From Lytechinus variegatus (taxonomy: Eukaryota; Echinodermata; Echinoidea; Temnopleuroida; Toxopneustidae), in the NCBI RefSeq assembly GCF_018143015.1, contig NC_054748.1, forward strand, positions 19,424,725 through 19,488,724: a DNA stretch of 64,000 bases, read 5' to 3'. Position 1 is the stretch's first letter, and each line of letters starts with the position of its first letter. Shown here piece by piece: positions 11,461 to 59,044 of this stretch. The translations under genes and the position numbers were made by a program. The notes beneath the pieces were generated by a model. The model saw only the letters and a list, made by a program, of their open reading frames with translations. It was not told the origin of the DNA and did no database searches.

Positions 11461-13309
11461 CTATCCTAGGAAATCAAGTAGGTTGTCCCCACCAACAGCC
11501 TTCTGCTTCTGTTGACTCGTTGCACCGGTGCTGGCAAACGGATCAAATCCTGCAGCCATTCCCGTTCCTTGTTGCTGCACGTTTGACCTCGGCAACGACC
11601 TCTGACCTGTGCCCGTAGAACCTCGGCCGTAATTTCCCATCATGCCTTGCTGTCCGAAGGCACCCTGTCCTTGATGATTCATATTTCCGAATGACCCCTG
11701 ACCCATGCCTCCCTGCGACCCCTGACCAAATGCCGCCTGGGCCATGCCAACTTGAGATCTCTGGAAAGAGTTCTGCCCCATTGGAGGGTTAGCGGGGTGT
11801 GGGGAATTCGCCGAAGACATTTGATTGAGCGTCCTATTGGACTTCTGCGACTGGGACGGCGCTAGGAGGGAATCGAACGCTGACATGTCAATGTTCTTTT
11901 TCGCTTGAGACGGTTGGCCCATTTGAGGAACCTTCTGTGGCACGTTACCGACCGGCTGCGAGAGAAAGGAAGAATTTGAAAGGCCCATTCCCCCTGTCCC
12001 AACGACACTCCCTGCAGACACAGTACCCGATGGTGAGTAAGGTGAACTGTTCATGCTGCTAATCCCGCTTGAGAGAAGACCAGTATTGCCACTTCCACCT
12101 GTCCTGGTGCCCATACCCACACTCTCCACTCCCGCAGCCTGGCCTTGACCCTTACTCCTGGAATCCATCAGTGACCCCGTCAGATCCTTGGCAGTAGACC
12201 TTGACGGTTGCTTCACGGCATCTTCAGGCTGGATCGCCTTCTGATTCTTCAATCTCTGTTGGAATTCCTGCTCCTTCTGAAGCCGTTGTTTCTCCTCCAG
12301 GCTCAGGGAGACCTGGGACGGACGTACAGGAACAGGTTCCGGTCTCTTGCTGGAGGAGCTGTTCGCTTGGCTGGATAGGGACTGTTTCTCGATCACAGGG
12401 CTGCTCTTTCCGTTAGTGTGACTGTCCAAACCAAACATCTGGTCAATCTAGGAAATTAAGGTTTGACATTTTATTAAATTACGAATACTTGTAAATGTGA
12501 TTAGCTTTTAAAGGTCAAGTCCACCCCAGTAAAATGTTGACATGAATAAATAGAGAAAAATAAAACTAGCAAAACGCTCAAAATTTGATCAAAATTGGAT
12601 ATAAATTAAGAAAGTTATGACATTTTTAATGTTCCAGTTAATTTTACTAAAGAGTTATACATACATCGTGGTTGGTATGCAAATGAGGGGACTGGTGACA
12701 TCATCCACTCACTATTTCTTTTGTATTTCATTACATGAAATATAAAATATTCAAATTTTTCCCTCGTTGTCCTGTGAAACCAAGCTTTATTCCTCCCTGA
12801 ACATGTGGAATTACCATTGTTTAAATATTTTCTGGTGGTGTCAATTTGATCCTTATTGTCAAATCTTTAAAAGTTGAAATATTCTATAATTCAAACAATA
12901 AAAACACAAAACAAATAGTGAGTGAAGACATCGACTGTCTCATTTGCATGTTGTCATCCAGGTGTCAAGTAAGATTAAATATTTCACAAAGAAATACATC
13001 AGAATTCTTTCCTAAAGCAATAACCTTTTAAACAGACTTTAAATCATGCTTATCGATTTTCCTGTTAAAAACAGAAGCCAACCAAGCAATATGATATCTT
13101 ATATCTTCCTTTTACATTTTAACTGGCATGCAAGCGAAAAAAAATCTAGTCACTTAAAAGTGTTTATCATAACACTGTAATACAGTTAATTATATTTTTT
13201 TCTACTCACTCCTGTCCCTCCAGAAGTATTGCTCTCCCCTCTCGATGACAATGGAACATCTCCATCTCCTTGACTGGTTTGTAGCTTCTGGGCAAATTCC
13301 ACTGATGTC
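11461..13309 (-). other. SCYL2: SCYL2 exons 14-15: adaptor-binding tail (aa 610-971)
   Basis: Exon 14 (13210-13309) is a short polar linker. Exon 15 (11461-12447, aa 644-971) starts [14 protein letters not shown] and holds the conserved [14 protein letters not shown] helix, [10 protein letters not shown] and [11 protein letters not shown] long region rich in Gly, Gln, Met and Ser follows. Near the end is FDPF (aa 944-947), a DPF-type motif of the kind that binds the AP-2 alpha ear, and the protein ends NLLDFLG. This agrees with the known clathrin/AP-2-binding C-terminus of SCYL2; binding here is inferred. Confidence 0.9.
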
Positions 13310-16300
13310 CTAGGGGTGTACAATTAGAGAAATGTATCATTTCAACAAGTCTTTACATTAAATCTAAAATTGCCATAAATGCTTCTTCATGTACCTGCTA
13401 ATCGGCCAATAATTTCATTGTACTTCCTTTGAAAAATATCCATCAATTAAAACACTCTAAAACAGAATATTTAAGTGTTGTCGATCCTTATTTAATTTAC
13501 CATTTTTTTTTCAATAAACATTGATAGAGAAGGCTTGCAAATCACTGAATCACTAAATATCTGGGGAATTGCAGAAAGATTGAAGTCTCAATAAAATCAC
13601 ATTTAAATTCTGTCAGAGAATATGACTTCAATAATAGGTGTATTCCAAGGGCCTAAAAGCTCCGTGGTTTATGTAGATTTTCTGTAGAAATTACCCTTAT
13701 TTACCACGTTTATTAAAAAATTCCACTGCTGATGCGCACTTTTGTCACAATGCGCCAAGTCGATGCCTGTTGCCTTGGTTATCCATGCTATTTTATTCAT
13801 GAGTCCACTCTTCAAACAGTGGAATCATGCATAAAATAGTGTATCTTACCATGGTAACAGGCGACAATTTTGCGCACTGTGACAAATGCGCGCATCAGCA
13901 TTGGACATTTTTAATACACGCGCTCGATACACGCTAAATTAAGCGTAAATTTATACAGGAAATCTGCATAAACCATGGATTCAACCGTGGGTTTTCAAAA
14001 CCACCTTTGTGAATTCGGGCCATTTATGTTTTAACCAACGAACATAGAGGGCAGCAACACACAAGCTGTGTGTTGCTGCCCTCTACGTTTGTTGGTTTTA
14101 ACTTTAAAAGATGAGATGGAAAGAGAGAGGGGAGGAATGGAAATATTTATAAAACAAAGGCATGGTAAAGGAGTCATGTGTCAAAAGAATTTTAACATAC
14201 TTTTGTTCTTCTTGTAAAGCATTGAGTTGTTCCAGTTTGACCCTTTGTTCCTTCTCAACCAATTTGATGAGGTCTCTTATCACTGACATGTATGCGTTAA
14301 ACTGTGATACACAAACAAAAGAAATGGTACCAATCTCCTTATCACTGACATTTATGCATTAAACTGATATATAGATGAAAGAAATGGTACCAATCTCCTT
14401 ATCACTGACATGTATGCATTAAACTGTGATAGATAGATGAAAGAAATGGTACCGATCTCCTTATCACTGACATTTATGCATTAAACTGATATATAGATGA
14501 AAGAAATGGTACCAATCTCCTTATCACTGACATGTATGCATTAAACTGTGATATATAGATGAAAGAAATGGTACTAATCTCCTTATCACTGACATGTATG
14601 CATTAAACTGTGATAGATAGATGAAAGAAATGGTACCGATCTCCTTATCACTGACATGTATGCATTAAACTGATATATAGATTAAACAAGTGGAATGCCT
14701 CTGGCCGTCTCACCTGCATCACGCGGTTCAATATAGCAGCAGTGCTGACTTTGAATACTACTCTAACTCGCACAAGATGTTCAGTGATACATGGTTACTC
14801 TTATGTCCACTTTTTATGAACTAGACCAATAAACTTAGAGATATGATGGTTATTCAACAAAAAACCCCAACATGGCCAAAGTTCATTGACCTTACATGAC
14901 CTTTGACCTTGATCATGTGACCTGAAACTCAAACAGGATGTTCAGTGATACTTGATTACTCTTATGTACAAGTTTCATGAATCAGATCCATAAACTTTCA
15001 AAGTTATGATGGTAATTCAACAGATACACCCAATTCGGCCAAAGTTCATTGACCTTTGACCTTGGCCATGTGACCTGAAATGCGCACAGGATGTTCAGTG
15101 ATACTTGATTACTCTAATGTCCAAGTTTAATGAACTAGACCAATAAACTTTCAAAGTTATGATGGTAATTCAACAGATACCCCCCATTCGGCCAAAGTTC
15201 ATTGACCCTAAATGACCTTTGACCTTAATCATGAGACCTCAAACTTGCACAAAATTTTCAGTGATGCTTGATTACTATTATGTCCAAGTTTCATGAATCA
15301 GATCCATAAACTTTCAAAGTTATGAGGGGAAATCAACAGATATCCCCAATTTGGCCAAAGTTCATTGACCCTAAATGACCTTTGACCTTGGTCATGTGAC
15401 ATGAACCTCATGTAGGATGTTCAGTGATACTTGATTAACCTTATGTCCAAGTTTCATGAACTAGGTCCATATATTTTCTAAGTTATGATGACATTTCAAA
15501 AACTTAACCTCAGGTTAAGATTTCGATGTTGATTCCTCCAACATGGTCTAAGTTTATTGACCCTAAATGACCTTTGACCTTGGTCATGTGACATGAAACT
15601 CTAATAGGATGTTCAGTAATACTTGATTAACCTTATGGCCAAGTTTTATTAACCAGGTCCATATACTTTCTAAGTTATGACGTCATTTCAAAACTTTAAC
15701 CTCAGGTTAAGATTTGATGTTGACGCCGCCGCCGTCGGAAAAGCGGCGCCTATAGTCTCACTTTGCTTCGCAGGTGAGACAATAAATGGTACCAATCTCC
15801 TTATCACTGACATGTATGCATTAAACTGATATATAGATGAAAGAAATGGTACCAATCTCCTTATCACTGACATGTATGCATTAAACTGATATATAGATGA
15901 AAGAAATGGTACCAATCTCCTTATCACTGACATGTATGCATTAAACTGATATATAGATGAAAGAAATGGTACCGATCTCCTTATCACTGACATGTATGCA
16001 TTAAACTGATATATAGATTAAATGAATGGTACCAATCTCCTTATCACTGACATGTATGCATTAAACTGTGATAGATAGATGAAAGAAATGGTACCAATCT
16101 CCTTATCACTGACATGTATGCATTAAACTGATATATAGATGAAAGAAATGGTACCAATCTCCTTATCACTGACATGTATGCATTAAACTGATATATAGAT
16201 GAAAGAAATGGTACCAATCTCCTTATCACCGACATGTATGCATTAAACTGATATATAGATGAAAGAAATGGTACCAATCTCCTTATCACTGACATGTATG

Positions 16301-19300
16301 CATTAAACTGTGATAGATAGATGAAAGAAATGGTACCAATCTCCTTACATCTGACATGTATGCATTAAACTGTGATACACAAACAAAAGAAATGGTACCA
16401 ATCTCCTTATCACTGACATGTATGCATTAAACTGATATATAGATGAAAGAAATGGTACCGATCTCCTTATCACTGACATGTATGCATTAAACTGATAGAT
16501 GAAAGAAATGGTACCAATCTCCTTATCACTGACATGTATGCATTAAACTGTGATACACAATCAAAAGAAATGGTACCAATCTTCTTCACTGACACATGTT
16601 ACTCAATTTTGTCCAATTACCATTTCAAAGCAAGGATGTGCTAAAAGCTCAATAATGATCTCATTAAAAAATCTCATAATTCATTTTAGGAGACTTATTG
16701 TTGGTTTGGGATTGGCAGGTCAAATGATGATGATGATGTTGAATATCTTACCTGATTTAGATTGAGGTTATTATCAATGGAGAGCGGGAAGAGGAATGGA
16801 AGTAACTTAGTGGCAGCGACATCCTTGCTGATTCCCAGCTTCTTATGGGTCATAGCCACTTTGATGATACCTGAAACAAAAAGAAAGCATGTCTTCGGTC
16901 ATTTGGCAAGTTTGGTATTTAAATGATACATTACCATGGTAATCATAGGCGACCGCACACCTTACGATTGGTCTGCGGCCCGATTTCAGAATAAAATGTA
17001 GTAGAATTTGATGCTAATATTGAGACTTGGAATATCTTACTGTGTAATGTTCTAAATCATCGTACGAATACTTATGTTCAAATCTGTGACAATGCTATCA
17101 TCCTTCTTAAAATAAAAGCGAATTTAATATCTAGTCCTAATGATGTCATAGCAGTTGTACGATTGCCCACGATTTGAAACAAATTTGCTTTTGTCTTTAC
17201 TCCAAAATAAAAGCTTGCAATCTTTTAAAATGGTTATATTAGTATTCTTTCAACTAATTTTAACCTCAAATAAAATGATATGTTCCATTCACTTTTTCAG
17301 TAAATGAGCAAAATGCAATTTGTTCCAGGTGTTAAGGTGTGCGGTAGCCTTAAGTAATGTATAGCAGTGATATTCGTAAACACATAACTTAATTTGCATC
17401 TGCAAAACTGCATTGCTTCATAATTCTATTTCTTTATCATATTATTCCATTAATACATCAATGCATAACTCAATCACTTCATGAAATAAATAGAAGAGGA
17501 ATGACACCATCAAGGACAAACCATTGATCTAAGATTCCCATAAGAACTGCTGGCACTCTTGATGGTATCTGTAGAAGGATATCATCAAGGACAAACCATT
17601 TATCCATATGCTCCAACAAAGACTCACTGGTATCCTAACAAATTTACCTAAGATTTCCATCAGAACGGCTGGCTCTCTTGGTGATATAATGATATCGTCA
17701 AGGACAAACCATTCATCCATGTCCTTTAACCAAGACTCACCAATATCCTAACAAACATACCTAGGATCCCCATAAGAACAGCCGGCTCCCTTGAAGGTAT
17801 CTGTAGAAGGAGTGGTATGATGTCATCAAGGACAAACCATTTGTCCATGTGCTCTAGCCAAGACTCACCAGTATCCTAACAAACTTACCTAAGATTTCCA
17901 TCAGAACAGCCGGCTGTCTTGATGGAATCTGTAGAAGGAGTGGAATGATGTCATCAAGGACAAACCATTTATCCATGTCCTCTAACCAAGACTCACTAGT
18001 ATCCTAACAAACTTACCTAAGATTTCCATCAGAACGGCTGGCTCTCTTGGTGATATAAGGATATTACCAAGGACGAACCATTTATCCATGTCCTCTAACC
18101 AAGACTCACCAGTATCGTAACAAACTTACCTAAGATCCCCATAAGAACAGCCGGCTCCCTTGATGGAATCTGTAGGAGTGGTATGAAGTCATCAAGGACA
18201 AACCATTTATCCATGTGCTCTAACCAAGACTCACTACTATCCTAACAAACTTACCTAAGATTTCCATCAGAACGGCTGGCTCTCGATCTTGGTGATATAA
18301 GGATATCATCTAGGACGAACCATTTGACATCCATGATTGGCCAGGTTCTGCCATCTCCTTCAGTATGTGATCTGGGTGTAATTTTTGATAAGAATGTGAA
18401 CATGCGCCAACACGTAAATATTGTTTGTCGCAAGGCCTCGTTTGCTCTGAGACGTATTGGAATGATTCGGTCATACCTTAGTAAGAATGTGACTGAGATC
18501 CTCATTCATGTTTTTGTATCTTCCCTTCTTGATAACTGTAACAGTCTTTTGTACGGAACGCCGGACAAAGATATAGCAAAGCTCCAAAGAATCCAAAATT
18601 CAGCCGCAAGACTTGTCTCCAGATCCAAGAAACACAACCACATCACCCCAATCCTCAAAGAACTTCACTGGCTACCTATCAAATCACGAATTCGCTTCAA
18701 AGTCCTTCTAATAACATTTAATGCTGTCCATGGTTTTGCCCCTCAATATATTTCTGAACTTGTTTCTCCATACACCCCCTCTAGGACACTTAGATCATCA
18801 ACTCAACTACTCCTTCAAGTACCCAGACTAAGAACTAAGACGCATGGCAAAAGGTCCTTCTCCCACAGTGCCCCAACCCTTTGGAATTCCCTCCCCAGTA
18901 CTCTCCGATCACAAAATAATCCTGGACTTTTCAAATCACAACTTAAAAAATTTCTTTTTAATGAAGCATTCAACTAAGCCTTTCCAAATACTTATGCCAT
19001 ACATGTATGTAACTGATTAATGTTGATGTTGCCAATTGTTATTCTAAGTAATTCCTTATATTGTATAATTCTTATTTTTGTAAAGTGCATTGAGAGTCCT
19101 TTCAGGTCTGAAATGCGCTATATAAGAACTACATTATTATTATTATTATTATTTATCCATGTGCTCTAACCAAGACTCACTAGTATCCTAACAAACTTAC
19201 CTAAGATCCCCATAAGAACAGCCGGCTCCCTTGATGGAATCTGTAGGAGTGGTATGATGTCATCAAGGACAAACCATTTATCCATGTGCTCTAGCCAAGA

Positions 19301-22300
19301 CTCACCAGTATCCTAACAAACTTACCTAAGATTTCCATCAGAATGGCTGGCTCTCTTGATGATATAAGGATATCACCAAGGACAATCCATTTATCCATGT
19401 CCTCTAACCAAGACTCACTAATATCCTAACAAACTTACCTAAGATCCCCATAAGAACAGCCGGCTCCCTTGATGGAATCTGTAGGAGTGGGTTGATGTCA
19501 TCTAGGACGAACCATTTATCCATGTGCTCTAACCAAGACTCACTAGTATCCTAACAAACTTACCTAAGATTTCCATCAGAACAGCCGGCTCTCTTGATGG
19601 AATCTGTAGGAGTGGAATGATGTCATCTAGGACGAACCATTTATCCATGTCCTCTAACCAAGACTCACCAGTATCCTAAAAAACATACTTAAGATTTCCA
19701 TCAGAACAGCCGGCTCTCTTCATGGAATCTGTAAGAGTAGAATGATGTCATCAAGGACAAACCATTTATCCATGTCCTCTAACCAAGACTCACCAGTTTC
19801 CTAACAAACTTACCTAGGATCGCCATAAGAACAGCCGGCTCCCTTGATGGAATCTGTAGAAGGAGTGGTATGATGTCATCAAGGACAAACCATTTGTCCA
19901 TGTCCTCTAACCAAGACTCACTAGTATCCTAACAAACTTACCTAGGATCCCCATAAGAACAGCCGGCTCCCTTGAAGGTATTTGTAGAAGGAGTGGTATG
20001 ATGTCATCAAGGACAAACCATTTATCCATGTGCTCTAGCATCTTTCCCAGGCTAACCAGACATCCCACACGAACCTAAATCAACAGCAAAGATTAGACCG
20101 AATCAGTATCTTACCCATTTAGGATTAAACATGTACCACAGGTTTTTCATATAGTTACTACAAGCAACTTTACGAATGACCGGTAATCCCTTCTTAGTTG
20201 CTAAATCAACACCAATTTAATTTTGGTGTACATTGCTTACCACAAGAAAGGATCACCGATCATTCGTAATGTCACCTGTAACTTACAAACAGCTTTATGA
20301 AACAGCCACCAGGACAGACACTATGTTCAAACTATTACATCCTGGGTTAAAGGAAAGACAGCAAAAACAATAATGATAATAATATGCAACTTTTATAAAG
20401 CACTAAATAAAAATATTTCTAAGCACTGCATACTATTCCCCAAGCTTCTTGGTGCGTGAGCATTGAAGGAATGTCTTCCTACCGGGTAGTGGTACCCATT
20501 TACTCGACCTTAAGAATGACTGGTGAACATTTCTTACGTGCTAAATAATATAATATATAATGTTTTATTGTCCAACTTAATGGAAATTCATTTTGTTTAC
20601 ATGCAAACATACAAATTACAAATATACATAATCAAGGAGAGACAAACTTAATACAAAATACTGGCATGCACGTAATACATTCGTTCTTATACATAAGACG
20701 ATTAAAAGAGTATAACGAGATCATTGCTGAAATACGAACAACAAGAAGGCATATTCGGTGTAGTTATCATTACCATCATTCTAAAACTGTTAAATAAGTA
20801 AAAGTATCAGGTCATTTTATTTTATTTATTTATTTATTACTTGAAGCATAATTCACATATAAAAAATCCACAACTCTTCATTGACCATGATGTCGATACT
20901 ATTATTCTAATCATTATAGTTGCAGTTATTATTATTATTATAATTATTATCATTATTATCATTACTATTATTACTATTACTACTACTATCATTACTCTTT
21001 ACATTTGTGGCAGTTTTGTATTGTATTAAAGAGGAGACATAGATGGCAATATTGAAGGGTAAGTGTAATTCTGCAATAAGGTGACTTGTTTTCTATTTAA
21101 TGGTTGAGAAGACGAATTGAGAAAGGAATAAAAGAATTTCTGTAACGGCTCGTTCTGGCCTTAACTGATTCCCACCTTCTTCCACTACGAAGTAGTTTGT
21201 ATTTCTTATTTAATGGATGGGAGTGATCACTGACTATTGCTTGGGTTTTGTCAACTACCTTTCCTTGACATATCCTATCCAAATCTACAACACACTTCGT
21301 AATCCTACTAGCCCGTTTCACGACTCTATACAATTTATCCTTATCCTTCTGTCTGGCACTGTGATACCAGGCAACACAGTCATGGGTGATGATACTCTGA
21401 ATAACTGATGTATAAAACAAATACAATATTTTCTCGTTTACATGAAATTGTTTCATCTTCCGAAGAAAAAACAATCTGTGGTTGCACTTGAGTGTGGTAG
21501 CTTTAGTCTGCTCGGACCAATCAAGTTTGTCATCAACAATAGTGCCTAGATACCTATAACTATGGACAATTTCAATTGGATGACCAATTCGATGTGAATA
21601 GGGAAATCTACAGGATCAAAAGATTTCTTCTTCCTGAAGTCAAAGATGATTTCTTTAGTTTTGTTAGAATTCAACACCAGATGGTTTTCAGTGCACCACC
21701 TACCAAAAGAGGATATACTCTCCCTATATTCTAACTCACTCTCTTTTATCAGGCATACAATAACAGTATCATCGGCATATTTCAAAATACGAACCAACGG
21801 AATATTGGAAATACAGTCATTAGTATATAATATATAGAGAACAGGTGAGAGAACACACCCCTGAGGAGACCCTGTGTTCGTTGTGAGTACGTTGGAGAGT
21901 ACATCATTAACCTTAACCCTCTGGGTTCTACCATGTAAGAAGTCATAGATCCAGAGAACCAGTGACGGTTTCACATCCAAGAAGCTTAATTTTTCTATTA
22001 ACTTATATGGCTGGATGGTATTAAATGCGGAGGAAAAATCCACAAATGTAGCTCTTGCATAAGAACTAACAGAATCTAAATGCTGGTAGAGTGAATGGGT
22101 TAACATGAGTACTGCATCTATGACAGACCTCTTAGACTGATATGCAAATTGGTTTAGATCAATTTTGTGACGGATTGATACAAGTACTTTTTCCAAAATA
22201 ATTCTTTCAAAACATTTCATGACAACAGGACTTATAATGCTACTGGTCTAAAATCATTATTCAACCTAGGACGATTATTTTTAGGCACTGGTGTAATGAC

Positions 22301-25300
22301 TGATGCTTTCCAGCATTTTGGTACGATATGCTCATTTATTGACCTTTGAAATAACATACAGTACGGAGCAGTGAGTTCAGATGCGCATGTCCGTAGGACA
22401 CGCCCACTAACACCATCGGGCCCAGTCGCTTTTCTCGGTTGATCAACTTTAAACGTCTCCGAACTTCGTGCTCTTCAATGACAATTGGGTTGTCATCCGA
22501 CGCGCGCAACCGTTCAACTTGTTCATCGGCGATATGACGGAAGTTTTCATTCTCAAAACGGGCGAAGAATGCGTTTAATTCGTCAGCTCTTTGTTGTGGA
22601 TTAGGTTCATTTGCAAACATGTTTTCTTTCCGACTACTCGAATAATCTGTCATGTGCTCTAGACATTTCCACGCGTCTCGGGGATTATTTGTATGGAAGT
22701 TTTCTTCGAGCTTTTCACCATAATCTTTTTTTGCTTCACTGATTTTCCGTTTCAGCCTATTTGTCAAGTCTTTAACAAGTTCACTGTCCCTCAGATGAAA
22801 TGCCCTTTTCCTTTCTTTCAAAATCAATTTCATTTCTTTCGTGAACCAAGGCTTATTGTTCGGATAAATAGTAACCAATTTAGACTGAATGTGAAGATTC
22901 TCACAGAAGATGACATAATTGTTAATTGTGTCTGTGAGTTAATGTATGTCGTCGCAGGCACCATAAAACAGTTCCCAATCCGTAATATCAAATCCCGTCT
23001 GCAGTAAGTCAACTGACGTATTGTTCCAAACTTGAACGTTCCTTTTTTTCGCACTGATTGGACTTAATCCGTTGCTTGTATTTTGGTAACATGTGAACGG
23101 TGTGATGATCGGACGCTCCCAGTCCCGGTCTCACAAGAGATTTGTATGCATTTGGTATCGAACTGTAGCATCTGTCTAAAATATTTCTTCCCCGTGTAGC
23201 AAAATCAACCAACTGATGATATTGGGGCATGGTATCCTCTAATTCACAATGATTGAAGTCTCCCAAAATAATAACCGGGGAATCAGGGGATCGCGTTTCA
23301 AGTTCACTCACTTTATCTTCGATGATCTGAATAGCTGTTACTTTATTTGCATCAGGGGGAATATATACCAACACAACGTGAACTTGTGGAAATTCTCGAG
23401 GGAGATAGAATGGTCGAAAAGAGAGAGACAAAAGTTCAATATCAGTACAGCATGTAGACGATCTTACAGTATAGTTGTTGCACCACTGTTTGTTTACAAA
23501 TACACATATCCCACCTCCTCTCTTTTTGTTTGTTAATTCAAAAGAACGATCAAGCCTTTCTACATCAAAACCAGCTATATCAATATTGTTGGAATGAATG
23601 TCATTATTAAGCCACGTTTCTGTTATACAAATCAAGCTAGAATTTCTATATTCGTGATCATATCTGACGTTAGCACGAAGTTCGTCCATCTTATTTACAA
23701 TCGATCTCACATTACTGAGGGTGATCGTTGGTAAAGGTGGACGATGGCCCCTCATCCGTTCACCAGTGAATACACCGTTTACCACAAGAAAGAATAACCT
23801 GTCGTTTTTAAAGTCGCTCCTAAAGTACAAACAACTTTATGAAACACCTACCTGGTCATGATCTTTGCCCAACTTCTCAATGTTTGTGTTCTTGTTTCAT
23901 AAAGTGGTTTGTAAGTTACAAGTGACATTACGAATGATTGGTGATCCTTTCTTGTGGTAAATGATGTACACCAAAATTGAATTGGTGTTGATTTAGCAAC
24001 TAAGAAGGGATAACCGGTCATTCGTAAAGTTGCTTGTAGTAACTATATGAAAAACCTACAGTACATGTTTATTTTGGCGATTATTTAAGCATGTAAGAAA
24101 TGTTCACCAGTCATTCTTAAGGTCGCTCTTAACTCACAATTTTCTGCAACAGCCTCCTGGGTGGAGAGTGGCAAATGTGGTTTCACACAAATAGATTTAC
24201 AAAAACAAACAAGATCTAGATCTAACATGACATGGTGACAATCAACCTGAATTTTAAAGACTTTCTGATAAAAATCATGGTTTGGTGATATAATATTCCT
24301 TTAGCTTTAATACTCACCGCCAGTAGAGATGTCTCCAAGCAAAGTTTCTTCATTCGTGGGACTATGGAATGTTTGATGGAGTTATACTCTATCATCCCAG
24401 CAAATGTAGGTAGAATATTTAAACATAGTTCCTACAGAAAGAAAGAAACAGTCAATTTTAGATATAAAGTCAATAGATAAACAGTCAATATAAGATATAA
24501 AGTCAATAAACAGTCAATATAAGATATAAAAGCAAATTGCCATCTTGGAGTAATAAACCAATTCCATGTAATACATGTATGTTGGCACATAAAATTAAAA
24601 CAGATTTTCTCAAAACAATCAATATGAATTTTATTTCTCGGGGGGACAAGGGTTGTTTCAACATTTCTAAAGAAAATGGATGGTGCAAGTTTGCAAGTTG
24701 TATTAATAATACATATTGAATGGACTTATACATTCTAAATAATGGCATTACATGGCCTATCATAGTTGTGATTACTAGGATCAATCACAAATCTTTGTAA
24801 GATAGGGCCGTGATAACCTGTATCTGAGCTGAACACGATTCTAAAACCCTATAGTCCATGGTACAAATCATTGTAAGATAGGGCCATGATAACCTGTATC
24901 TGAGCTGAACACGATTCTAAAACCCTATTGACCATGGTGCATGCAAGTGCATACATCACATTTACAAAACATGTTGAATGAACATAAACATTAAAAATGT
25001 ATATATAGCTTTCCATAGTTGATCGGATCAACTAACAACTCTTTGTAAGAAAGATTCCTGCTAACCTGTATCTGAGCTGAACACGATTCTAAAACCCTAT
25101 AGACCATGGTGCATGCAAGTGCATACATCACATTTACAAAACATGTTGAATGAACATAAACATTGAAAATGTATATAGGCTATAGCTTTCCATAGTTGAT
25201 CGGATCAACTAACAACTCTTTGTAAGAAAGGTTCCTGCTAACCTGTATCTGAGCAGAAGACGATTCTAAAGCTCTATACACCATGGGTAGAACATGATTC

Positions 25301-27039
25301 TTGATGTCATCAGAGGGCGTCTTGGTGAGTAGAAGGGTCATCCGTTGCATGAAGATCAGTAAAATCTTAAAAGAACATAAAAAGGGATACATAAAGGGAA
25401 CAGGGAACAAATGAACAAAATTAAGTTTTAAAATCAATCCAATGGTGGATGGTGGATCCAGGGAGCATTTCCAGCCTGTGCCCCCCCTCCTTTTGAAAGT
25501 CACAGTCAATTTTTTAATGAGAATATGTCTTCCATACACACATGACACATGTGCCCCCCCCCCTTGAGTGTCACAGTAAATATTTTTAATGGGAATATGT
25601 CGTTCATACAAAAGCGAGGACCGTTCTTTTTCCTTGTCAAATTTTCTCGGGAATATGTGCCACCCCCCCCCCTTGGAAAATCCTGGACCCGCCTCTGTAT
25701 AAGAAAGGATTATTTACATCTGGGGGCGACCATTAAAGATCAGTAAAATCTTAAAAAAGAAACATCCAAAGAGGTACATTAGGAGAAGGTTTCAAAACTG
25801 TATGCATTCGAGTTCTAGCAGACATGGACCAATCAGATTATTTACATCTGGGGCCGGCATTCAAAGGGGAAGTTCACCCTGACAGAATTTTTTTTTTTTT
25901 TTTAAGTAGAAAAGTGTGAGAACTGTACATTGGTGAAAGTTTGATGAATATGCATCAAAGAATAAGAGTTACGACTGCTAAGTTTTTGATATTTGATGTA
26001 GTATGCAAACAGCTCCTTCATATCGTATAAAATGAAAAACCTGCACTAAATCCTCATCGATAAAAAGAAAACAATTAGCGCAAGACCAGTGTCTATAGTC
26101 TATGACAGCATCGCCGCCATGGTTCATAGTACTCTGCATCAGACGTATTGCTAACAGCATCAGACTCATAATTGCAAACAAAAAACTGCAGCCTTGCCGA
26201 GATCATGGGCTGGGTTTTCCTGCCATCCTACTCCTTACCTGAACAGGTTCTTGCATCTTGAAGACATTCTTTAGGCTCGGTAAGACCAGCTTCACATACT
26301 CCTGATCGGTGCATTGTTCGGCGATGAGGAGTACATTGGGTAAGACAAACGGCACCATGTCAGGATTCATGAACTCCTTACACAAGCATGGTAGTATTCT
26401 CTGCTGAACAACCCTCTAGGAATGAAAATATTGATGACCATAAACATAATAAAAATTAATGATAATGATTATCATCATCAGAGCTGCCAACCTGAAAAAG
26501 AACAGTTCAGTATGTTTAAAGTTGAAAAACTGAATACTGAAAATCATTGCTACTTGGCAGCTCTGCATCATCCTCATCATAATCATCAACATCATCAACA
26601 TCATCCTCAACATCAACATCAACATCACCACATCATCACCATCATCATCATCATCATCATCACCACCACCATCATCATCACCATCATCAACATCACCATC
26701 ATCAACATCACCATCATCAACATCACCATCATCAACATCATCATCATCAACATCATCACCACCACATCATCATAATCATCAACATCCTCACCATCATAAT
26801 CATCCTCAACATCACCACCACATCATCATCATCAACAACATCATCACCACCACATCATCATCATCATCATCCTCACCATCATCATCAACATCATCACCAT
26901 CATCATCATCACCATCATCATCAACATCATCACCACCACCTCATCATCATCATCATCATCAACATCATCATCATCACCATCATCATCATCAATCATCATC
27001 ACAATCACCATCACCAGCATCCTCAACATCATCACCATC

Positions 27040-27070
<31 letters not shown>

Positions 27071-30000
27071 CAATCACCACCATCACCACCTCATCATCAC
27101 AATCATCATCATCATCAAAATAATAATCATCATTAAGCGAAAATGCACCGACTACTAACTGGTATTAAATAGTTGGCAAAGTACAGAAACAGGCTAATGC
27201 ATTCAAAGCGGAAATGCATCAAATACCTTCATAGAGTGTTCATTGATGTGCTAAATTCCAGTAACCTGCTCTATACCATTTCTGCGTCCTGCTATGTAAA
27301 GCAGGCTTATTTTGAAAATCACCTATCCTATTAAAAGAAATGAAAGCTTATTTGAACAAATTTATCCATTAGGTAACCATGAACCGGTCTATTGTAAAAC
27401 CTTCCATCCATTAAATCCGACTTACCTTGGGAAGAGTTGAGATTACTTTTGGAAGACCTTTGAAGAATTGAGCTTTCTGTTTGCTTTCTTGTTGAAACAA
27501 TGAGTCAACGTACTGGAGAGTCATGGCACCAACGTCGTCAAAATATGGAATCTACGAATGAATTCAAATAGAATGATTTCAACAATGTCATCAGAACTAA
27601 AAATTAATTCAAATAAAATGATTGCAAACTTGTAATCAAAACATGGAATCTAAGAATGACTTCAAATAGAATGATTTCAACAATGTCATCAGAACATGGA
27701 ATCTAAAAATTAATTCAAATAAAATGATTGCAAACTTGTAATCAAAATATGGAATCTAAGAATGACTTCAAATAGAATGATTTCAACAATGTCATCAGAA
27801 CATGGAATCTAAGAATGGATTCTAATTGAATGATTGCAAACATGTAATCAAAATATGGAATCTAAGAATGGATTCTAATAGAATGATTGCAACAATGTAA
27901 TCAAAATATGGAATCTAAGAATGGATTTTAATAATAGGATGATTGCAACAATGTAATCAAATAAGTAATCTAAGAATGACTTCAAATAGAATGATTGCAA
28001 CAATGTAATCAAAATAAGTAATTTAAGAATGGATTCTAATTGAATGATTGCAAACATGTAATCAAAATATGGAATCTAAGAATGGATTCTAATAGAATGA
28101 TTTCAACAATGTATTCAAAATAAGTAATCTAAGAATGGATTCTAATTGAATGATTGCAACAATGTAATCAAAATATGGAATCTAAGAATGGATTCTAATA
28201 GAATGATTGCAACAATGTAATCAAAATAAGTTATCTAAGAATGACTTTAAATAGAATGATTGCAACAATGTAATCAAAATAAGTAATTTAACCCTAAAAA
28301 GACTGGGGGGGGGCTGATTCAGCCCCCCCCTCGACATTTTTCGCGATAAATCCGCCGCGCAATTTTTTTTGACCGTGTCGCTCACTGGCTTTTTACTTTC
28401 AAGTCTCGCGCAACTTTTGAGACCAAAATTGTGACCCCCGGGTACGCGGTTCGGAAATTACGCAACATTTTGTAAGTGCATGCACACCCAAAATTACTCA
28501 AAAACGTGAATTTGTGTACAAATCCAATGGAAATAGTGTTTTTAACCAAAATTCATAAATGTATCATTATTTTTCCTTTTACTGCTTAAAATCAATTAAT
28601 TTTATCTTTTTTATGGTCCAAATAAAGTCCCTGACAATTTCCATTGAAAAAACAATAAAAAACAAAAAGTCGAAAAACAAAGAAATACATAAGAAATTTA
28701 GAAAACAATAGAATACATAAGAAAATAAATGTGATGTTGAAATTTTTTTTTAATAAATTTGATCAGATGCCTATCTAGAGTATGTGAAACAAAAATTAGC
28801 ATTTCAGGGGCATTATTTTATTAATTACAGCAAACTTATGATTTTACGCATAAATTAGCATAATTAATCAAACACGAGATTTTTGCAGAATTTGATGTTA
28901 TTGTTTTGTAGATAATGCCATGGGTAACGCGTGTGCCAATTTTCGTCGCGATCGCGTGATCGACGGCCGAGATCATAAGGGGGGGCTGAATCAGCCCCCC
29001 CCAGTCTTCTTAGGCGTCGAAATAGCCCAGTCTATTTAGGGTTAAGAATGGATTCTAATTGAATGATTGCAAACATGTAATCAAAATATGGAATCTAAGA
29101 ATGGATTCTAATAGAATGATTGCAACAATGTAATCAAAATAAGGAATCTAAGAATGACTTCAAATAGAATGATTGCCACATTGTCATCAAAACATGGATG
29201 TCATCAACACATGGAATCTGAGTATGGATGCCAATAGAATGATTACAACAATGTCACTAAAATATGGATACTAAGGATGGATTCAAAAGAATGATTGAAT
29301 CAATGAGTTTTAAAACAATGAGTCATGGCCCCAAAGTCACCAAAATATGGAATGTGGATGACTTGATAAAAGTGAGGATTAAAGAAATAATGAGGCGGGG
29401 GAGGGGGGGTGTAGACGTGTATTAAACATCACACATCTTGGTCGCAATGTCAAATGGGAGGATTTTCACAACAAATGTGATCTCAAATGCTCACAAAATT
29501 CTTATTTAACAAATTTTTTTCTCAAATTTTCATTGACTTATTTCGTCAGATTGCTTTTACTCACTCATGTGTTAATGGGGGATCATGAGTTATACCATGC
29601 CAAAGAGATTCTAAGCTTCACAATAATAGTTCATTTTTCTATTTTATTTGTGATTAAGTTTATATGATAAAGGATCGATAATCCTCAGTTTCATTTTTAG
29701 TGGGGGCGCACTTTCCTTCTCTTACCTTGCCTAGTTGATCAGCGTCCGGTCTGATGGTTGGTGTGGTACTTAGTAACATCTTCACATACTCTTTCAAACC
29801 ATCAGGAAGGCTTGATAATAAAGATATATTCAGACTTCGCAACTGAAAAATCAAAACAAGAAGGATACTGATGTATCGTATTTCTATTCAATATGCTTTA
29901 TGCAGATCAAATCCACAGTAATTAACCATTTTTTTTACTCCATATATCATAATATATGGAGTAAATATATCATAATATATGGAGCATTGGAGCGTTGTGG

Positions 30001-32253
30001 CCCAGTGGATTAGTCTTCGGACTTTGAAACAGAGGGTCATGGGTTCAAATCCCAGCCATGGCATAATTTCCTTCAGCAAGAAACTGATCCACAATATGCT
30101 GCACTCAACCCAGGTGAGGTAAATGGGTACCGGTAGGAATTGATTCCTTAACCCTATCGAGGCCGGGGGGGCCTTGGAGGCCCCCCCAACGAGTCGCGCG
30201 ATATTTCGCGCAAATTTTTTTGACCACGCTGCTCGCTGACTTTTTACTTTCAAATCTTGCGCAACTTTTGAGACCAATTTTGGGCACCCGGGTACGCGGT
30301 TCTGAAGTTACGCAACGTTATGTAAGTGCATGTCAGACCAAAAATTGCTCAAAAACGTGATTTCGTGTACAAAGTAAATGTAAATTGTGTTTTCAATCAA
30401 AAATCATAAATGTATGATTATTTTTAGTTTTGCTGGACTAAATGTTTGTATTTTATGCTTTTTATGATTGTAGAAGAGTCCCTAACATTGAAAAACAAAA
30501 GGTCAAAAAACAAAGAAATACATAAGAAATTGCAAAAAAAAAAACAATATAAATCATAAGAAATTGATCTGATATCACAATTTCTTTCATGTACACTTGC
30601 TAAGAACATCACAAAGAGTTTCTATGCTAAAAATCAGAACATTTGGAGCTTTATTTATGGAGTTAGAGGAAAAAGTATGATTTCGCATACTAATTACGCA
30701 TAAATTAACATAATTACATAATAATAATTCACATGAAAAAAATTACTATACAATTTTGTAGATTATATCCCAGACAACCTGCGTGCCAATTTTCGGCGCG
30801 CGGTCGAAGGCCGAGATCTCATGGGGGGACCTGGGAGGCCCCCCCCCCCGGCCATATGAACTCCGAAAATACCCCGGCCTAGATAGGGTTAAAAAGCTGT
30901 GTGCGCTATGAACGCCTAGCTTAGCCAGGTAATAATAATGGTCAGTTCTTGTATAGCGCATAACACATTTTAAATACCGTCTCTATGCACTTCCAAAGGA
31001 CTTGGATATTATTACCCCGGCTGTAGCTAAAGCAGCCTTTCCAGCACTCGGCATTTTAAGGAATTAATTCCTGCCAGGTACCCATTTACCTCACCTGGGT
31101 TGAGTGCAGCACAATGTGGATAAATTTCTTGCTGAAGGAAACTACGCCATGGCTGGGATTTGAACCCATGATCCTCTGTTTCAAAGTCCAGAGACTAATC
31201 CACTGGGCCGCAAAGCTCCACATAATGTGGAAGTGACAATAATATGGAAGTGAACCTTTTAACTATAATTTGTCAAGTACAGTCACAATCAGTGTCGTAC
31301 AGATGGGGGACTTTCCAAGAAAAAAAAAGAGGAAAGGAAAGAAAGGGAAAGAGAGAAGGGTGAAATATATTATTTTCAGAATATTATGTCAAAGTCTATC
31401 AACAATTGATTTTTTTTTGAAAAAATGTCAAAATTTTTGCTCGCACACTTCGGTTGCTCACAACTTTTTTTTAAAATAAATTTTGTCCTATATGCATTAT
31501 CCAGCCCCCTCAGAACTTTTGGTTCATTACTGGTCAAAGCTGTCTATAAAATAGAGGAAACAGTAAAAGTGGACCCCGGAGACAAGTAACCTTTATAGTC
31601 AGGTTTTCACGAAAGACAGGTGGTTGTTGAGACAGGTTTGACCATGAAATTAATTTTTGAAATTATCAAAGATATTACTACCTGTTCAGATTTCTGTTTA
31701 AATGTGGCAAGATTCTCGTTGCAATCATGGAAGAGTTTGCCGTTGTTGATCACGGAGTACATTAACATACCAAGACTGAACATATCACTGGACGTATCAC
31801 AGCTCTGTGTTAACTGGTACTCCGGAGCTAAGTAGTTCAAGTCTGGCTGAAGCAATGCTGAGATATTGTTCATAAGTTCACGTGAAGGGAAACTAGCCTA
31901 TGAGAGAATGAGAATTATGCGATTAGGCACAGATATTTCCAGCTATTTGAGGAGACATTCAAAGTCCTGGGTTCGATATCGGCCATGGCACTTACACCAG
32001 TGAGCAAAGCATTTAATGAAGAGTGCTCCTGTATCATGCATTCAAATAAATGGAAATTCTGTACACATACTTGGAAACTATATGCCACTTTAACAAACAC
32101 AATAAATGAATGAAATATTTATTCCAGTGACTGTGATAGACTTATGTGATTGACAGATCACAAATGCTCTTCATCACCATCACCACCACCATCATCACCA
32201 TCATCATCACCATCATCAGCTTCATCACCACCATCACCATCATCATCAGCTTC

Positions 32254-32285
<32 letters not shown>

Positions 32286-32313
32286 CATCATCATCAGCTT
32301 CATCATCATCACC

Positions 32314-32345
<32 letters not shown>

Positions 32346-33812
32346 CAGCTTCATCATCATCATCACCATCATCATCACCATCATCATCAGCTTCATCATC
32401 ATCATCACCATCATCATCACCATCATCATCAGCTTCATCATCATCATCATCATCAGCTTCATCATCATCACCATCATCATCAGCTTCATCATATGACTTA
32501 CTGGTTGATCAGGTGGTGATGAGGAAGGGAAAACAAAGTCATGTGACTTACTGGTTGATCAGGTGGTGATGAGGAAGTGATAACAAAGTCATGTGACTTA
32601 GTGATTGATCAGGTGGTGAAGAGGAAGAGACAACAATGTCTGGTTAATCAGGTGGTGATGAGGTGGACAAATAAATCACATGATTTTTACTGGTTGATCA
32701 GGTGGTGAAGAGGAAAGGATAAAAAAAGTCAGGTAACTTTCTGGTTGATCAGGTGGTTAGGAGGAAGGGAAAACAAAGTCATGTGACTTACTGGTTGATC
32801 AGGTGGTGATGAGGAAGGAATAACAAAGTCAAATCCAGCTAGCTTCCAGGCTCCATTACCATTCAAGATAATACTCGCCGGTGAAATATTACCATGGACC
32901 ATATGAACATCATTATGAAGAAACTTCAAGGCATCTGTTAACTGTAAAAGAGCAAACAATAGTCATGTTCTACACTGAATCAGAAACAGGAAACATACAA
33001 AATATTCAGAGATAAGTTTTAATTTCAACTTTGTTTCCTATGATATAATACTACAGTCACATCTTGAATTTTCTTTTTTTTTCAAATCATTCCCTATATC
33101 AATGGATGTTTTCTGAACTTGCATTCAAATTCTGTTATTTCAAAATAGTGTAAACAATAACAATTTGGTTACAAGCACAAGTAAATTACTTTATACTGAG
33201 AGCACACAACCCACCTGTAGAAGGCCATATTTGATCTCGACTTCAAACAACTTGTGTTCTCCAATGTCCGGTGGTATGGGCGTCGGCATGTTGTCATGGC
33301 AACCTAATATATTGGCTAGGCTGGCAAAGACAGGCTCTGTAGCAAACGCCAGGCTTTCTCTGTGAAGTGAAGGAAGAGCAGAAGAGAAAATCAATTGCAG
33401 AAACTGCTGTAATCACCAATTAAATCGTGGTAATATTACTTGTGCAAGAGATCTATAATCACTGTAAAAAGGAAAATGTGTGAAGTCAATGATCAATGCC
33501 TGTGGATGTTCCACTCAAGAGAATGCTCCAGTCTTGCATAGAAAAAAAGTTGTGCATAACTTTAAAAGAGCTTTATAAAATACCACCCTGCATGCTGACA
33601 TCAATCCCTCCCCCCCTTGAACTTTGTAGTTTATTTACCGGTATGTTTCATCCCCATTGGACTCCATGAAAGATGAAACCATGTGTGAAAAAGGCTACCC
33701 TGATTTTTGGATGAACAAAAAATGAAATCAAAGAAAAAAATGGATGGATGGATAGATGGATGGGTGGAAAGATGGATGAATGGATGGATGACTGGATGAA
33801 TGGATGGATGAC

Positions 33813-33847
<35 letters not shown>

Positions 33848-34504
33848 ATGGTTGGATGGATGGTTGGATGGATGGTTGGATGGATGATGGATGGATGGAT
33901 GACAGGATGGTTAGATGACTGGATGGATGGATGGACGGACAGATGGATGATATAACGAATGAACAAAGAATATAATGAATGAATGAAACAATACGTAAAC
34001 AAGAGAACTAACCTTGTTTCTTCCAATGGATGTTGAACCGTAAGCACACACGGATGTCTTAGCCTGGTCAACTGGGTTGAACCCTTACGTAAGATCTCTA
34101 ACAATGGTTCTCTATCCTTTTTGGCAAATCTTTCCAGGAGTTTCTTCTCGAATACAAATACACCTGCTTCCTGTTACCATGGAGATGAGCAAAACAATTC
34201 AAAATGTCATAATTTATTATTTTACATCCAATTTTGATGAATTTTTCAGCACTATGCTTCATTTTTTTTCTCTTTTTTAAAATCAAATCAACATTTTGAT
34301 AGGGTGAACTAGTAGTCTTTCATAAACGGCTAATGAATCTGCATCTCTACAAACCTGTTTCGTTGATCTTTTGACAGCAAGATAGATCTTCCACAAACAC
34401 CCGGGACCGCCGCTACCGACATGCCGAATGACCTCATATTCTCTCATCACTGGGTTCCCGATAAACCCACCAACCGTACTTTTCAATTTATTCAGCATCT
34501 CCAT
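11461..34504 (-). CDS. SCYL2: SCY1-like protein 2 (SCYL2/CVAK104), 15 coding exons
   Basis: SCYL2 is a pseudokinase-like protein of clathrin-coated vesicles that binds clathrin and AP-2 and acts in endosomal traffic. Coding exons in transcript order: 34355-34504, 34013-34170, 33215-33359, 32792-32941, 31682-31897, 29726-29842, 27426-27551, 26239-26415, 25243-25365, 24318-24431, 19942-20074, 16752-16870, 14201-14301, 13210-13309, 11461-12447. All introns have GT-AG ends and phases agree. The sum is 2916 nt, or 971 aa plus stop, against about 930 aa in vertebrates. The order is N-terminal kinase-homology domain (about 20-310), HEAT-like helical region (about 315-610), then a low-complexity Gly/Gln/Ser/Met tail. 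The start is the ATG at 34502-34504, which gives [11 protein letters not shown], matching the family N-terminus; no base shifts were needed. Introns make up most of the gene and carry many transposons. Five exon junctions are tandemly amplified (see findings). Confidence 0.95.
12512..13030. mobile_element. Partial foldback MITEs in SCYL2 intron 14
   Basis: The left end TTAA|AGGTCAAG at about 12508-12519 and the following 250 bp match the element at 157-732. A further piece in the opposite orientation seems to follow at about 12850-12990. The right terminus is not clear, so the copy is broken or nested. Confidence 0.55.
13650..14022. mobile_element. Foldback MITE in SCYL2 intron 13
   Basis: About 13655-13800 and 13835-13980 are inverted copies: TGATGCGCACTTTTGTCACA near 13730 is mirrored near 13900, and GTGGTTTATGTAGATTTTCTG near 13662 is mirrored near 13970. 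The ends look like GGGCC...GGCCC, but no target duplication is certain. Confidence 0.6.
14035..14095. repeat. 29-bp-arm near-perfect hairpin
   Basis: The arms 14035-14063 and 14067-14095 are complementary with two mismatches, around a 3-base loop (AGC). The arm contains AGAGGGCAGCAACACACA. It lies in SCYL2 intron 13, about 105 bp downstream (in transcript sense) of exon 13. Confidence 0.85.
14684..15782 (-). mobile_element. Pearl-like (Helentron-type?) element, copy 1
   Basis: It shares both ends and internal order with 61968-62927, in the opposite orientation. The ends carry GTCTCACCTGC and its inverse GCAGGTGAGAC. The core is a tandem of about 163-bp units, each with TGACCTTTGACCT. It sits inside the 60-bp array with no clear target duplication. 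A tandem core near 160 bp resembles the 'pearl' elements described in bivalves and echinoderms, which have been grouped with Helentron-related non-autonomous elements; that assignment is inference. There is no protein coding. Confidence 0.75.
14897..15580 (-). promoter_or_regulatory. Five perfect DR1 nuclear-receptor motifs
   Basis: TGACCTTTGACCT (AGGTCA-A-AGGTCA on the minus strand) occurs at 14897-14909, 15050-15062, 15213-15225, 15376-15388 and 15568-15580. Spacings are 153, 163, 163 and 192. DR1 is the consensus for RXR, HNF4 and COUP-TF type receptors. Function is not shown; the motifs are part of the transposon core. Confidence 0.6.
17521..19941 (-). repeat. Tandem array of SCYL2 exon 11 cassettes
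   Basis: About 13 extra copies of roughly 120-128 bp follow the true exon 11 (19942-20074), with an L2-like LINE inserted at 18325-19153. On the minus strand most copies read (E)-[13 protein letters not shown]...PSREPAVLM(G/E)IL and end in a strong donor, TAG|GTAAGT. The equivalent of the exon's first 40 nt is missing; instead TTGGTTAG precedes the open cassette. Two main types differ at the end (MGIL and MEIL), plus a shortened type reading [18 protein letters not shown]. The copy near 19690-19790 has an in-frame TGA. Confidence 0.92.
18325..19153 (+). pseudogene. 5'-truncated L2/CR1-type LINE fragment
   Basis: The open frame to 18977 encodes the C-terminal part of a LINE polymerase. It starts near the DLGVIFD block, then has [32 protein letters not shown] and the APTLWNSLP block. 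It stops at 18977, and about 170 bp of 3' UTR end in (ATT)n at 19134-19153, the usual L2-type tail. It is inserted in the exon 11 cassette array, in the opposite orientation to SCYL2. The RT catalytic motif is missing, so it is a dead copy, although the remaining frame is unbroken. Confidence 0.85.
20153..20312. mobile_element. Palindromic MITE, left member of an inverted pair
   Basis: The sequence is near the reverse complement of 23893-24062, and each copy is itself roughly palindromic (CAACTTTACGAATGACCGGT on one half, ATCATTCGTAATGTCACCTG on the other). A further piece at about 20510-20555 is inverted at about 24080-24125. Confidence 0.65.
20580..23770 (-). pseudogene. Rex1-like LINE, decayed, in SCYL2 intron 10
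   Basis: This non-LTR retrotransposon lies in the same orientation as SCYL2. From 5' to 3' it has an endonuclease frame (to 23009; [23 protein letters not shown] and LGASDHHTV blocks), a linker frame (22336-22878; NKPWFTKEM), an RT frame (21546-22220; [35 protein letters not shown] and the catalytic YADD at about 21770-21780), and a tail frame (21097-21474). At least three frame breaks separate these, so it is inactive. The [20 protein letters not shown] signature fits the Rex1/Babar group of the CR1 superfamily. The 3' end is rich in (TAA)n at about 20905-20995. The 5' end abuts MITE sequence near 23770. Confidence 0.85.
23893..24062. mobile_element. Palindromic MITE, right member of an inverted pair
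   Basis: It is the inverted relative of 20153-20312, with the same ATTCGTAA-containing half palindromes. Together the two copies bracket the Rex1-like LINE. Confidence 0.65.
24790..25242 (-). repeat. Tandem copies of the SCYL2 exon 9 donor end
   Basis: Three extra copies of the exon 9 3' end lie at about 24800-24855, 24878-24940 and 25053-25110. On the minus strand they read [14 protein letters not shown], against [13 protein letters not shown] in the true exon 9 (25243-25365). Two early copies are about 75 bp apart; later ones form a unit of about 177 bp that also contains unique intron DNA. The GT donor is kept in each. Confidence 0.85.
25870..26170. repeat. MITE fragment in SCYL2 intron 8
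   Basis: It begins GGGGAAGTTCACCCTGACAG followed by a T run, similar in style to other MITE ends in the window (compare 1380-1390 and 34300-34315). No second end is seen. The rest of intron 8 has C-rich runs near 25480-25680. Confidence 0.35.
26479..26565. mobile_element. 87-bp MITE inserted in a (CAT)n tract
   Basis: It begins CAGAGCTGCCAA, ends TTGGCAGCTCTG, and is flanked by CATCAT on both sides (26473-26478 and 26566-26571). Same family as 1782-1987. Confidence 0.75.
26566..27135. repeat. (CAT/CAC)n microsatellite in SCYL2 intron 7
   Basis: About 570 bp of imperfect CAT trinucleotides with CAC and CAA variants. Long open frames on both strands here are low-complexity artefacts. Confidence 0.95.
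27552..29300 (-). repeat. 53-bp tandem array copying the SCYL2 exon 7 acceptor
   Basis: A unit near 53 bp is repeated about 15-20 times at 27552-28290 and 29046-29300, split by a piggyBac-like element. On the minus strand each unit has TTAG|ATTCCATATTTTGA, close to the true exon 7 start (GTAG|ATTCCATATTTTGAC at 27551). Unit variants differ in the GACTTCAAAT and GGATTCTAAT segments. Confidence 0.9.
28292..29041. mobile_element. piggyBac-like MITE, TTAA duplication (copy 1)
   Basis: The ends read TTAA|CCCTAAAAAGACT and AGTCTATTTAGGG|TTAA. Just inside each end is a G9/C8-type hairpin (GGGGGGGGGCTGATTC and its complement). The interior shares GCGCAACTTTTGAGACCAAA and GGGTACGCGGTTC with 30152-30888. 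It is 750 bp with no coding, and sits inside the exon 7 acceptor array. Confidence 0.85.
29992..30925 (+). repeat. tRNA-derived SINE split by a piggyBac-like element
   Basis: The head 29992-30065 has tRNA-like A-box (TGGCCCAGTGGATTAG) and B-box (GGGTTCAAATCCC) motifs. The body continues to 30151 and resumes at 30889-30925 after the inserted element. Its head matches the SINE at 30926-31222 in the opposite orientation, so the two are tail to tail. Confidence 0.8.
30152..30888. mobile_element. piggyBac-like MITE, TTAA duplication (copy 2)
   Basis: TTAA|CCCTATCGAGGCC at the left and GGCCTAGATAGGG|TTAA at the right. G-rich/C-rich hairpins (GGGGGGGCC...GGCCCCCCC) stand just inside each end. It is 737 bp and similar in the interior to 28292-29041. 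It is inserted into a SINE. Confidence 0.85.
30926..31222 (-). repeat. Nearly full-length tRNA-derived SINE
   Basis: Read on the minus strand, it has a GGCCCAGTGGATTAGTC head, a GGGTTCAAATCCCAGCC B-box, a body containing CACCTGGGT/GGTACCTGG-like motifs, and a tail ATGCGCTATACAAGAACTG ending in ATT repeats. The tail resembles that of the L2-like LINE at about 19115-19153. It lies in SCYL2 intron 5. Confidence 0.8.
32160..32492. repeat. (CAT/CAC)n microsatellite with AGCTT interruptions
   Basis: About 330 bp of CAT/CAC trinucleotides, interrupted regularly by 'CAGCTT' in a higher-order pattern. It lies in SCYL2 intron 4, next to the exon 4 donor array. Confidence 0.95.
32493..32791 (-). repeat. 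About 49-bp tandem array copying the SCYL2 exon 4 donor
   Basis: Six extra copies stand at about 32495, 32543, 32592, 32640, 32686 and 32735, next to the true exon end at 32792. On the minus strand a unit has CCACCTGATCAACCA|GTAAGT, i.e. the last exon 4 codons plus the donor. GTAAGT is intact in the copies at about 32495 and 32543; others have GTAAAA or lost GT. Confidence 0.88.
33735..33955. repeat. (ATGG)n minisatellite in SCYL2 intron 2
   Basis: Imperfect ATGG/TGGA tetranucleotide repeats over about 220 bp. Open frames here are low-complexity artefacts. Confidence 0.95.
34175..34320. mobile_element. MITE fragment in SCYL2 intron 1
   Basis: The segment matches the right end of the 157-732 element (AATTTATTATTTTACATCCA and the T-rich stretch that follows). 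It fills most of the 184-bp intron between coding exons 1 and 2. Confidence 0.6.
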
Positions 34505-53430: not shown

Positions 53431-53930
53431 NNNNNNNNNNNNNNNNNNNNNNNNNNNNNNNNNNNNNNNNNNNNNNNNNNNNNNNNNNNNNNNNNNNNNN
53501 NNNNNNNNNNNNNNNNNNNNNNNNNNNNNNNNNNNNNNNNNNNNNNNNNNNNNNNNNNNNNNNNNNNNNNNNNNNNNNNNNNNNNNNNNNNNNNNNNNNN
53601 NNNNNNNNNNNNNNNNNNNNNNNNNNNNNNNNNNNNNNNNNNNNNNNNNNNNNNNNNNNNNNNNNNNNNNNNNNNNNNNNNNNNNNNNNNNNNNNNNNNN
53701 NNNNNNNNNNNNNNNNNNNNNNNNNNNNNNNNNNNNNNNNNNNNNNNNNNNNNNNNNNNNNNNNNNNNNNNNNNNNNNNNNNNNNNNNNNNNNNNNNNNN
53801 NNNNNNNNNNNNNNNNNNNNNNNNNNNNNNNNNNNNNNNNNNNNNNNNNNNNNNNNNNNNNNNNNNNNNNNNNNNNNNNNNNNNNNNNNNNNNNNNNNNN
53901 NNNNNNNNNNNNNNNNNNNNNNNNNNNNNN
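53431..53930. other. Assembly gap, 500 N
   Basis: Exactly 500 undetermined bases between the satellite and a LINE remnant. A round number may be a placeholder, so the real length is unknown. Confidence 0.99.
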
Positions 53931-58740: not shown

Positions 58741-59044
58741 CTTATAAAAATAATACTCTGTTTAAAGCAATATAATTCCTAATACTCTTCTTTTGTTTCA
58801 CTCCTTTCCTTAATTTCACCTTCCCAATTTATTCCCATCGTACCAAGCTCCTCTTTCCATTCCTCTTTCTCCCCTCCCCCCTCATTTTATCATTTCCAAT
58901 TTCCAATTGCTCCTCCCCTTCCTTTCCCTATTCCAAAACACAACGTAATCTTTTTATTACTCAGTTATGTAAGTCAAATGGCAGATTCTACGGTCCTTAC
59001 GTGTTTATTATTCTTCATCTTGTTTTGTAATAATTATTTTTCAG

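Follow-up and report, generated by a model that had tools for sequence, protein, structure and literature searches.

The window, by which we mean the whole 64,000-nucleotide stretch of Lytechinus variegatus DNA analyzed here, carries the coding part of SCYL2 on the minus strand (11464..34504), in which 15 coding exons were found. Exons 1 to 13 were positioned by splice consensus and lie, in the order of transcription, at 34504-34355, 34170-34013, 33359-33215, 32941-32792, 31897-31682, 29842-29726, 27551-27426, 26415-26239, 25365-25243, 24431-24318, 20074-19942, 16870-16752 and 14301-14201; exon 14 follows at 13309-13210, and the last exon starts at 12447, both on the same strand. A human SCYL2 sequence was used solely as a guide for finding exons, and the 609-aa translation of exons 1-13 is 100% identical to the NCBI record of L. 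variegatus SCY1-like protein 2. Elsewhere in the window we noted a tandem array outside SCYL2 with a 209 bp unit in about 9.6 copies (7189-9210), a 193 bp satellite of 27 copies adjoining a gap of 500 N (48221-53430), a 661 aa open frame with RING and B-box domains (58976-60958), and a long open frame (37935-40517) in which endonuclease and reverse transcriptase domains were recognized and which presumably belongs to a retroelement of the non-LTR type.

Five of the SCYL2 exon-intron junctions are tandemly repeated, as the original prediction had claimed: all five arrays were detected by TRF and by edge alignment, and the predicted unit sizes (about 49, 53, 75/177, 125 and 60 bp) agree with TRF and with the alignments of the units. 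When each true edge, with 60 bp to either side, was aligned to its surroundings and every match that extended 8 bp or more past the edge in both directions was counted as a crossing copy, such copies appeared at all five edges. The exon 4 donor array (32489..32831; minus strand, like the other four junction arrays) is built of a 49 bp unit comprising the last 40 bp of exon 4 and 9 bp of intron, and GT is present in three of its six crossing copies; a TGA-type microsatellite adjoins the array beyond its end. At the exon 9 donor (24778..25286), units of 75 bp and ~177 bp hold the last 44 bp of exon 9 together with intron sequence, 31 bp of it in the shorter form and more in the longer one, and all three crossing copies keep the GT. 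The exon 11 donor array, whose ~125 bp unit joins the last 86 bp of exon 11 to ~39 bp of intron, consists of a near part that includes the working exon end (19151..20037) and a far part (17529..18325), which together give 12 further crossing copies, every one with GT (12/12). The two acceptor arrays are likewise in two parts. At exon 7, a 53 bp unit made of 18 bp of intron with the terminal AG and the first 35 bp of the exon fills 27517..28281 and 29043..29371, and AG is found in 15 of the 16 crossing copies of both parts; the outermost copy is similar to an extended portion of the exon from which a piece is missing, and its AG is replaced by AC, which would fit an older layer. The 60 bp unit at exon 13 combines 34 bp of intron, terminal AG included, with the first 26 bp of the exon, and its near (14276..14684) and far (15784..16594) parts contain 18 crossing copies, all with AG (18/18).

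These arrays, three at donors (exons 4, 9 and 11) and two at acceptors (exons 7 and 13), are unrelated to one another, and their units combine ~26-86 bp of exon with 9-39 bp of intron. In total we counted 55 crossing copies, and the expectation that splice sites are retained in many of them was borne out, GT or AG being found in 51/55 by pairwise and in 49/54 by multiple alignment (the copy sets differ slightly). The additional copies are confined to the intron side; next to the exon stands the intact copy that serves as its working edge. All arrays contain diverged copies, with many different substitutions and indels; in the exon part, the copies of exons 7, 9 and 13 are closer to each other than to the working edge, and those of exons 4 and 11 are not. 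Beyond the exon 13 array, an intron stretch, ACATGTGTCAGTGA, is closely similar to ACATGTCAGTGA of exon 13, which may reflect either the chance homology that founded the array or a decayed copy. Among the 28 SCYL2 splice edges tested, three of which belong to exon 14 and the last exon, the only other edge with a crossing copy is the exon 9 acceptor, where a single diverged copy (25736..25787, minus strand; 79% over ~52 bp) sits ~370 bp upstream of the edge; none was found at the remaining edges.

Three of the arrays, those of exons 13, 11 and 7, are interrupted by inserts, which are listed here with no strand assigned. The exon 13 array is split by a high-copy dispersed element (14685..15783) that has GTCTCACCTGC/GCAGGTGAGAC near its ends, contains a 163 bp repeat and occurs at 97-100% identity in at least 39 other long genomic places. 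The insert in the exon 11 array (18326..19150), probably a transposable element, has an ATT-repeat tail and an open frame that gave no Pfam match, and that in the exon 7 array (28282..29042) has inverted ends of the TTAACCCTAAA type. The notion that the array units themselves are transposons was rejected: the sequence of each unit corresponds to the edge of its own exon, and in a genome search of 14302-15302 the long places listed match the insert only, from base 14656. Two further repeats of the gene lie off the edges, namely a 29 bp array (24446..24530, minus strand), which leaves a gap of ~15 bp to the exon 10 acceptor and does not cross it, and a degenerate intronic repeat at ~25480-25680, which falls below the TRF threshold.

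It had also been claimed that every array spans an exon edge. Taking TRF families with a period of at least 20 and a score of at least 80, after joining split halves and excluding insert-internal repeats and TGA-type microsatellites, we found this to be true of five of the six SCYL2 families but not of the 29 bp array near exon 10. A founder unit whose position is drawn at random from the sequence outside exons and inserts has a 2 to 15% chance of crossing an edge, depending on its length; under such founder placement, finding at least five of six families at edges has a P of 6.5e-6, which rises to 3.8e-5 when another non-edge family is added, both values being post hoc since the gene was chosen for the pattern. 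By coverage within 500 bp, crossing copies are present at 6/25 edges versus 226/715 intronic points outside inserts, and the edges are not special in this measure because the arrays occupy about one third of the intron points.

As controls we used exons of the same genome, obtained by family searches that returned 75 myosin-head rows and 104 ubiquitin-hydrolase rows. The 57 slices fetched represent 78 places (52/75 and 26/104), dense clusters and clean strong matches having been favored, and 153 edges were placed in them by a simple splice score; the sample is of limited size, and longer units may escape detection in flanks of 200-400 bp. Nine of the 153 control edges have a crossing copy, three of them in slice L050, four in L051 and the others in L045 and L081. 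At L050 (C1:57037100-57037900), the start of a ubiquitin-hydrolase-domain exon is repeated in tandem, with a 126 bp unit that includes the acceptor. At L051 (C4:12147850-12149900), two copies of a whole exon with its flanks, 97% identical, lie 1.4 kb apart, and the domain range concerned is matched again near C4:9.52 Mb. These two slices had been chosen for their already visible doubled matches, and dropping them (4 exons, 8 edges) leaves 74 exons with a crossing copy at 2/145 edges versus ~3% of intronic points; over all slices 95/1669 control intronic points have one, 54 of them outside L050 and L051 and some of these stemming from the L045 and L081 repeats. Seven TRF families (score 80, period at least 20) are present in the 55 remaining slices, and one of them crosses an edge, against 0.74 expected; the L081 repeat is not among the seven, as its slice is not long enough for the unit. 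L045 (C5:7371750-7374350) shows the duplication of a myosin acceptor edge, with a 69 bp unit in several copies, and L081 (C5:7356706-7357294) another acceptor-edge duplication, in which ~85 bp of exon are repeated nearly unchanged; since the two lie on the same strand ~15 kb apart, they probably belong to one myosin gene. Two other candidates were discarded: the supposed donor-edge array of L058 (C7:19503590-19504820) is a 21 bp array (799-875) that starts at the placed donor (875 versus 876) and lies on the intron side only, and at L048 a 130 bp doubling adjoins the acceptor, with no crossing in the edge test. When only copies within 200 bp of the edge are counted, as in the controls, SCYL2 has crossing copies at 4/25 edges compared with 2/145 in the controls (Fisher P 0.005, post hoc), and counting all five arrays gives a P of 8e-4, which is likewise post hoc.

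The original prediction held that no named phenomenon fits such arrays, yet minisatellites at exon-intron boundaries had already been named mirages in amphioxus, as PMC3087553 makes clear. That paper reports, in the globin genes, tandem duplications resembling minisatellites that cover exon-intron boundaries, cites earlier mirages in Adh3 and other genes, and credits the name to Canestro 2002. Amphioxus mirages affect either boundary, have units of 10-160 bp, and carry AG/GT in many, but not all, copies; splicing is normal and turnover takes place inside the clusters (PMC3087553 and PMC3902484). The second paper adds a PGBD5 mirage and cites TnC, and the mirage genes named in the two papers are Adh3, the globins BflGb6 and BflGb9, TnC and PGBD5. 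Of the mirage features, the SCYL2 arrays display units across the exon-intron boundary at five edges (3-18 crossing copies each), repetition of the donor side at three of these and of the acceptor side at two, and AG/GT in many but not all copies; length polymorphism and somatic instability are further mirage traits, whereas the SCYL2 arrays are known here from one assembled sequence. The anatomy shared with the amphioxus cases supports the reading of the SCYL2 arrays as mirages. The greater similarity of the copies to each other than to the real edge in the exon part of three of the five arrays is in line with mirage turnover, whereas the lack of such homogenization at exons 4 and 11 counts against this reading. 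L050 is another mirage, as are the acceptor-edge repeats of L045 and L081, and mirages are therefore not private to SCYL2. Our literature search, which covered titles and abstract openings and mainly openly available papers, found no sea-urchin mirage case.

Taken together, we consider it likely that the SCYL2 arrays are mirage minisatellites produced by ordinary tandem duplication and by array growth that spared the working copy. Founder duplications of roughly 50-125 bp would not be tied to any part of the gene, might start from short chance homologies, and would in some cases happen to span a splice junction; those that did would survive because the donor or acceptor joined to the exon would still be functional. 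The arrays would subsequently expand into the intron through slippage or unequal exchange, the exon-joined copy being held by selection and the remaining copies turning over neutrally. Several arrays in one gene would represent the extreme of a genome-wide background, possibly together with a rate of tandem duplication that is elevated across the gene. Such ordinary duplication is supported by the control exons, which show no edge excess, and by the level of repeats in the genome at large: 20 samples of 10 kb, spread evenly over the 870 Mb genome, contain 29 arrays that make up 4.9% of the bases, tandem arrays thus being common in this genome and the raw material for mirages with them. Counting against it are the edge rate of SCYL2, which is far above that of the controls, the position of its founders at edges beyond chance, and the location of both control-positive edges apparently in one gene, which hints at gene-wide clustering beyond plain randomness.

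An alternative is a process that operates at splice junctions, or in particular genes, perhaps by way of transcription-linked structures, and that favors exon-intron edges as targets of duplication. We regard this as unlikely. It is favored by the five of six SCYL2 families at edges (P 6.5e-6 by founder placement, post hoc) and by the fact that two of the three control-gene junction duplications apparently lie in one myosin gene, but control arrays have no edge preference, control edges (2/145) do not exceed control intronic points (~3%), donors and acceptors are both affected, and the five units share no common motif by eye. Of the earlier suggestion, the part that finds support is that five separate junction-built arrays in SCYL2 exceed random founder placement, a post hoc comparison; a general junction hot spot is not supported, the small control sample having 1/7 against 0.74 expected. 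In a more far-reaching version, a gene-wide process in some mirage-bearing deuterostome genes (urchin, lancelet) would repeatedly duplicate splice junctions, SCYL2 and one myosin gene being examples; we think this improbable, but if it were true, the affected genes would be natural nurseries of new introns and exons.

The original prediction also raised the option that the extra splice sites were selected, and they could in principle serve alternative or buffered splicing of SCYL2. The retention of GT/AG in 51 of 55 crossing copies would fit this, yet in none of the five arrays did we find GT/AG to be better retained than other dinucleotides of the unit: with the real edge counted among the copies, retention equals or exceeds that of the splice dinucleotide for 81, 33, 65, 37 and 49% of the unit dinucleotides (exons 4, 7, 9, 11 and 13), and by this comparison selected splice options were rejected. 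Additionally, the array copies are absent from the annotated SCYL2 protein, whose NCBI record bears no isoform label, and no inserts occur at the array-bearing joins in this protein or in its Strongylocentrotus and Diadema relatives; we hence judge selection for these sites highly improbable. It is scarcely credible that the arrays are assembly artefacts. Tandem arrays are error-prone and the copy numbers may be wrong, but the copies differ by many different substitutions and indels, three of the arrays are interrupted by different inserts, and the window's 500 N are confined to 53431-53930.

Read as mirages, the SCYL2 arrays extend a phenomenon that the cited papers describe from lancelets to an echinoderm whose genome is sequenced at chromosome scale, and they do so with five cases in one gene. 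This makes it testable whether junctions attract tandem duplication or whether such arrays look special since exons are easily recognized. With their insert-split members, the arrays also provide material for studying why the spliceosome passes over so many intact decoys and how introns are gained by duplication.

A related case in mammals is the human CBS gene, in which a 31 bp VNTR lies across the border of exon 13 and intron 13. As in that VNTR, the repeat unit in SCYL2 contains the splice site at a coding exon edge, but CBS is one mammalian locus, whereas SCYL2 has five arrays in one gene. Intron gain is said to occur through tandem duplication of AGGT-containing segments (the Rogers model), reportedly exemplified by a potato RdRp gene; in SCYL2, too, tandem duplication multiplies splice signals, but a new intron is not seen. 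Like ordinary intronic minisatellites, the SCYL2 arrays grow, turn over and take later inserts; unlike them, their units carry coding sequence and a working splice site. In human duplicated genes, variable internal tandem repeats have been described at exon-intron boundaries (PMC2812944), and these repeats and the SCYL2 arrays share the boundary position and may both add splice signals. The human repeats are tied to new introns in recent gene copies, whereas the SCYL2 copies lie inside existing introns. The closest counterparts are the mirages of amphioxus, which the cited papers report from lancelets, whereas SCYL2 is an echinoderm gene with five of them and with up to 18 extra copies at an edge.
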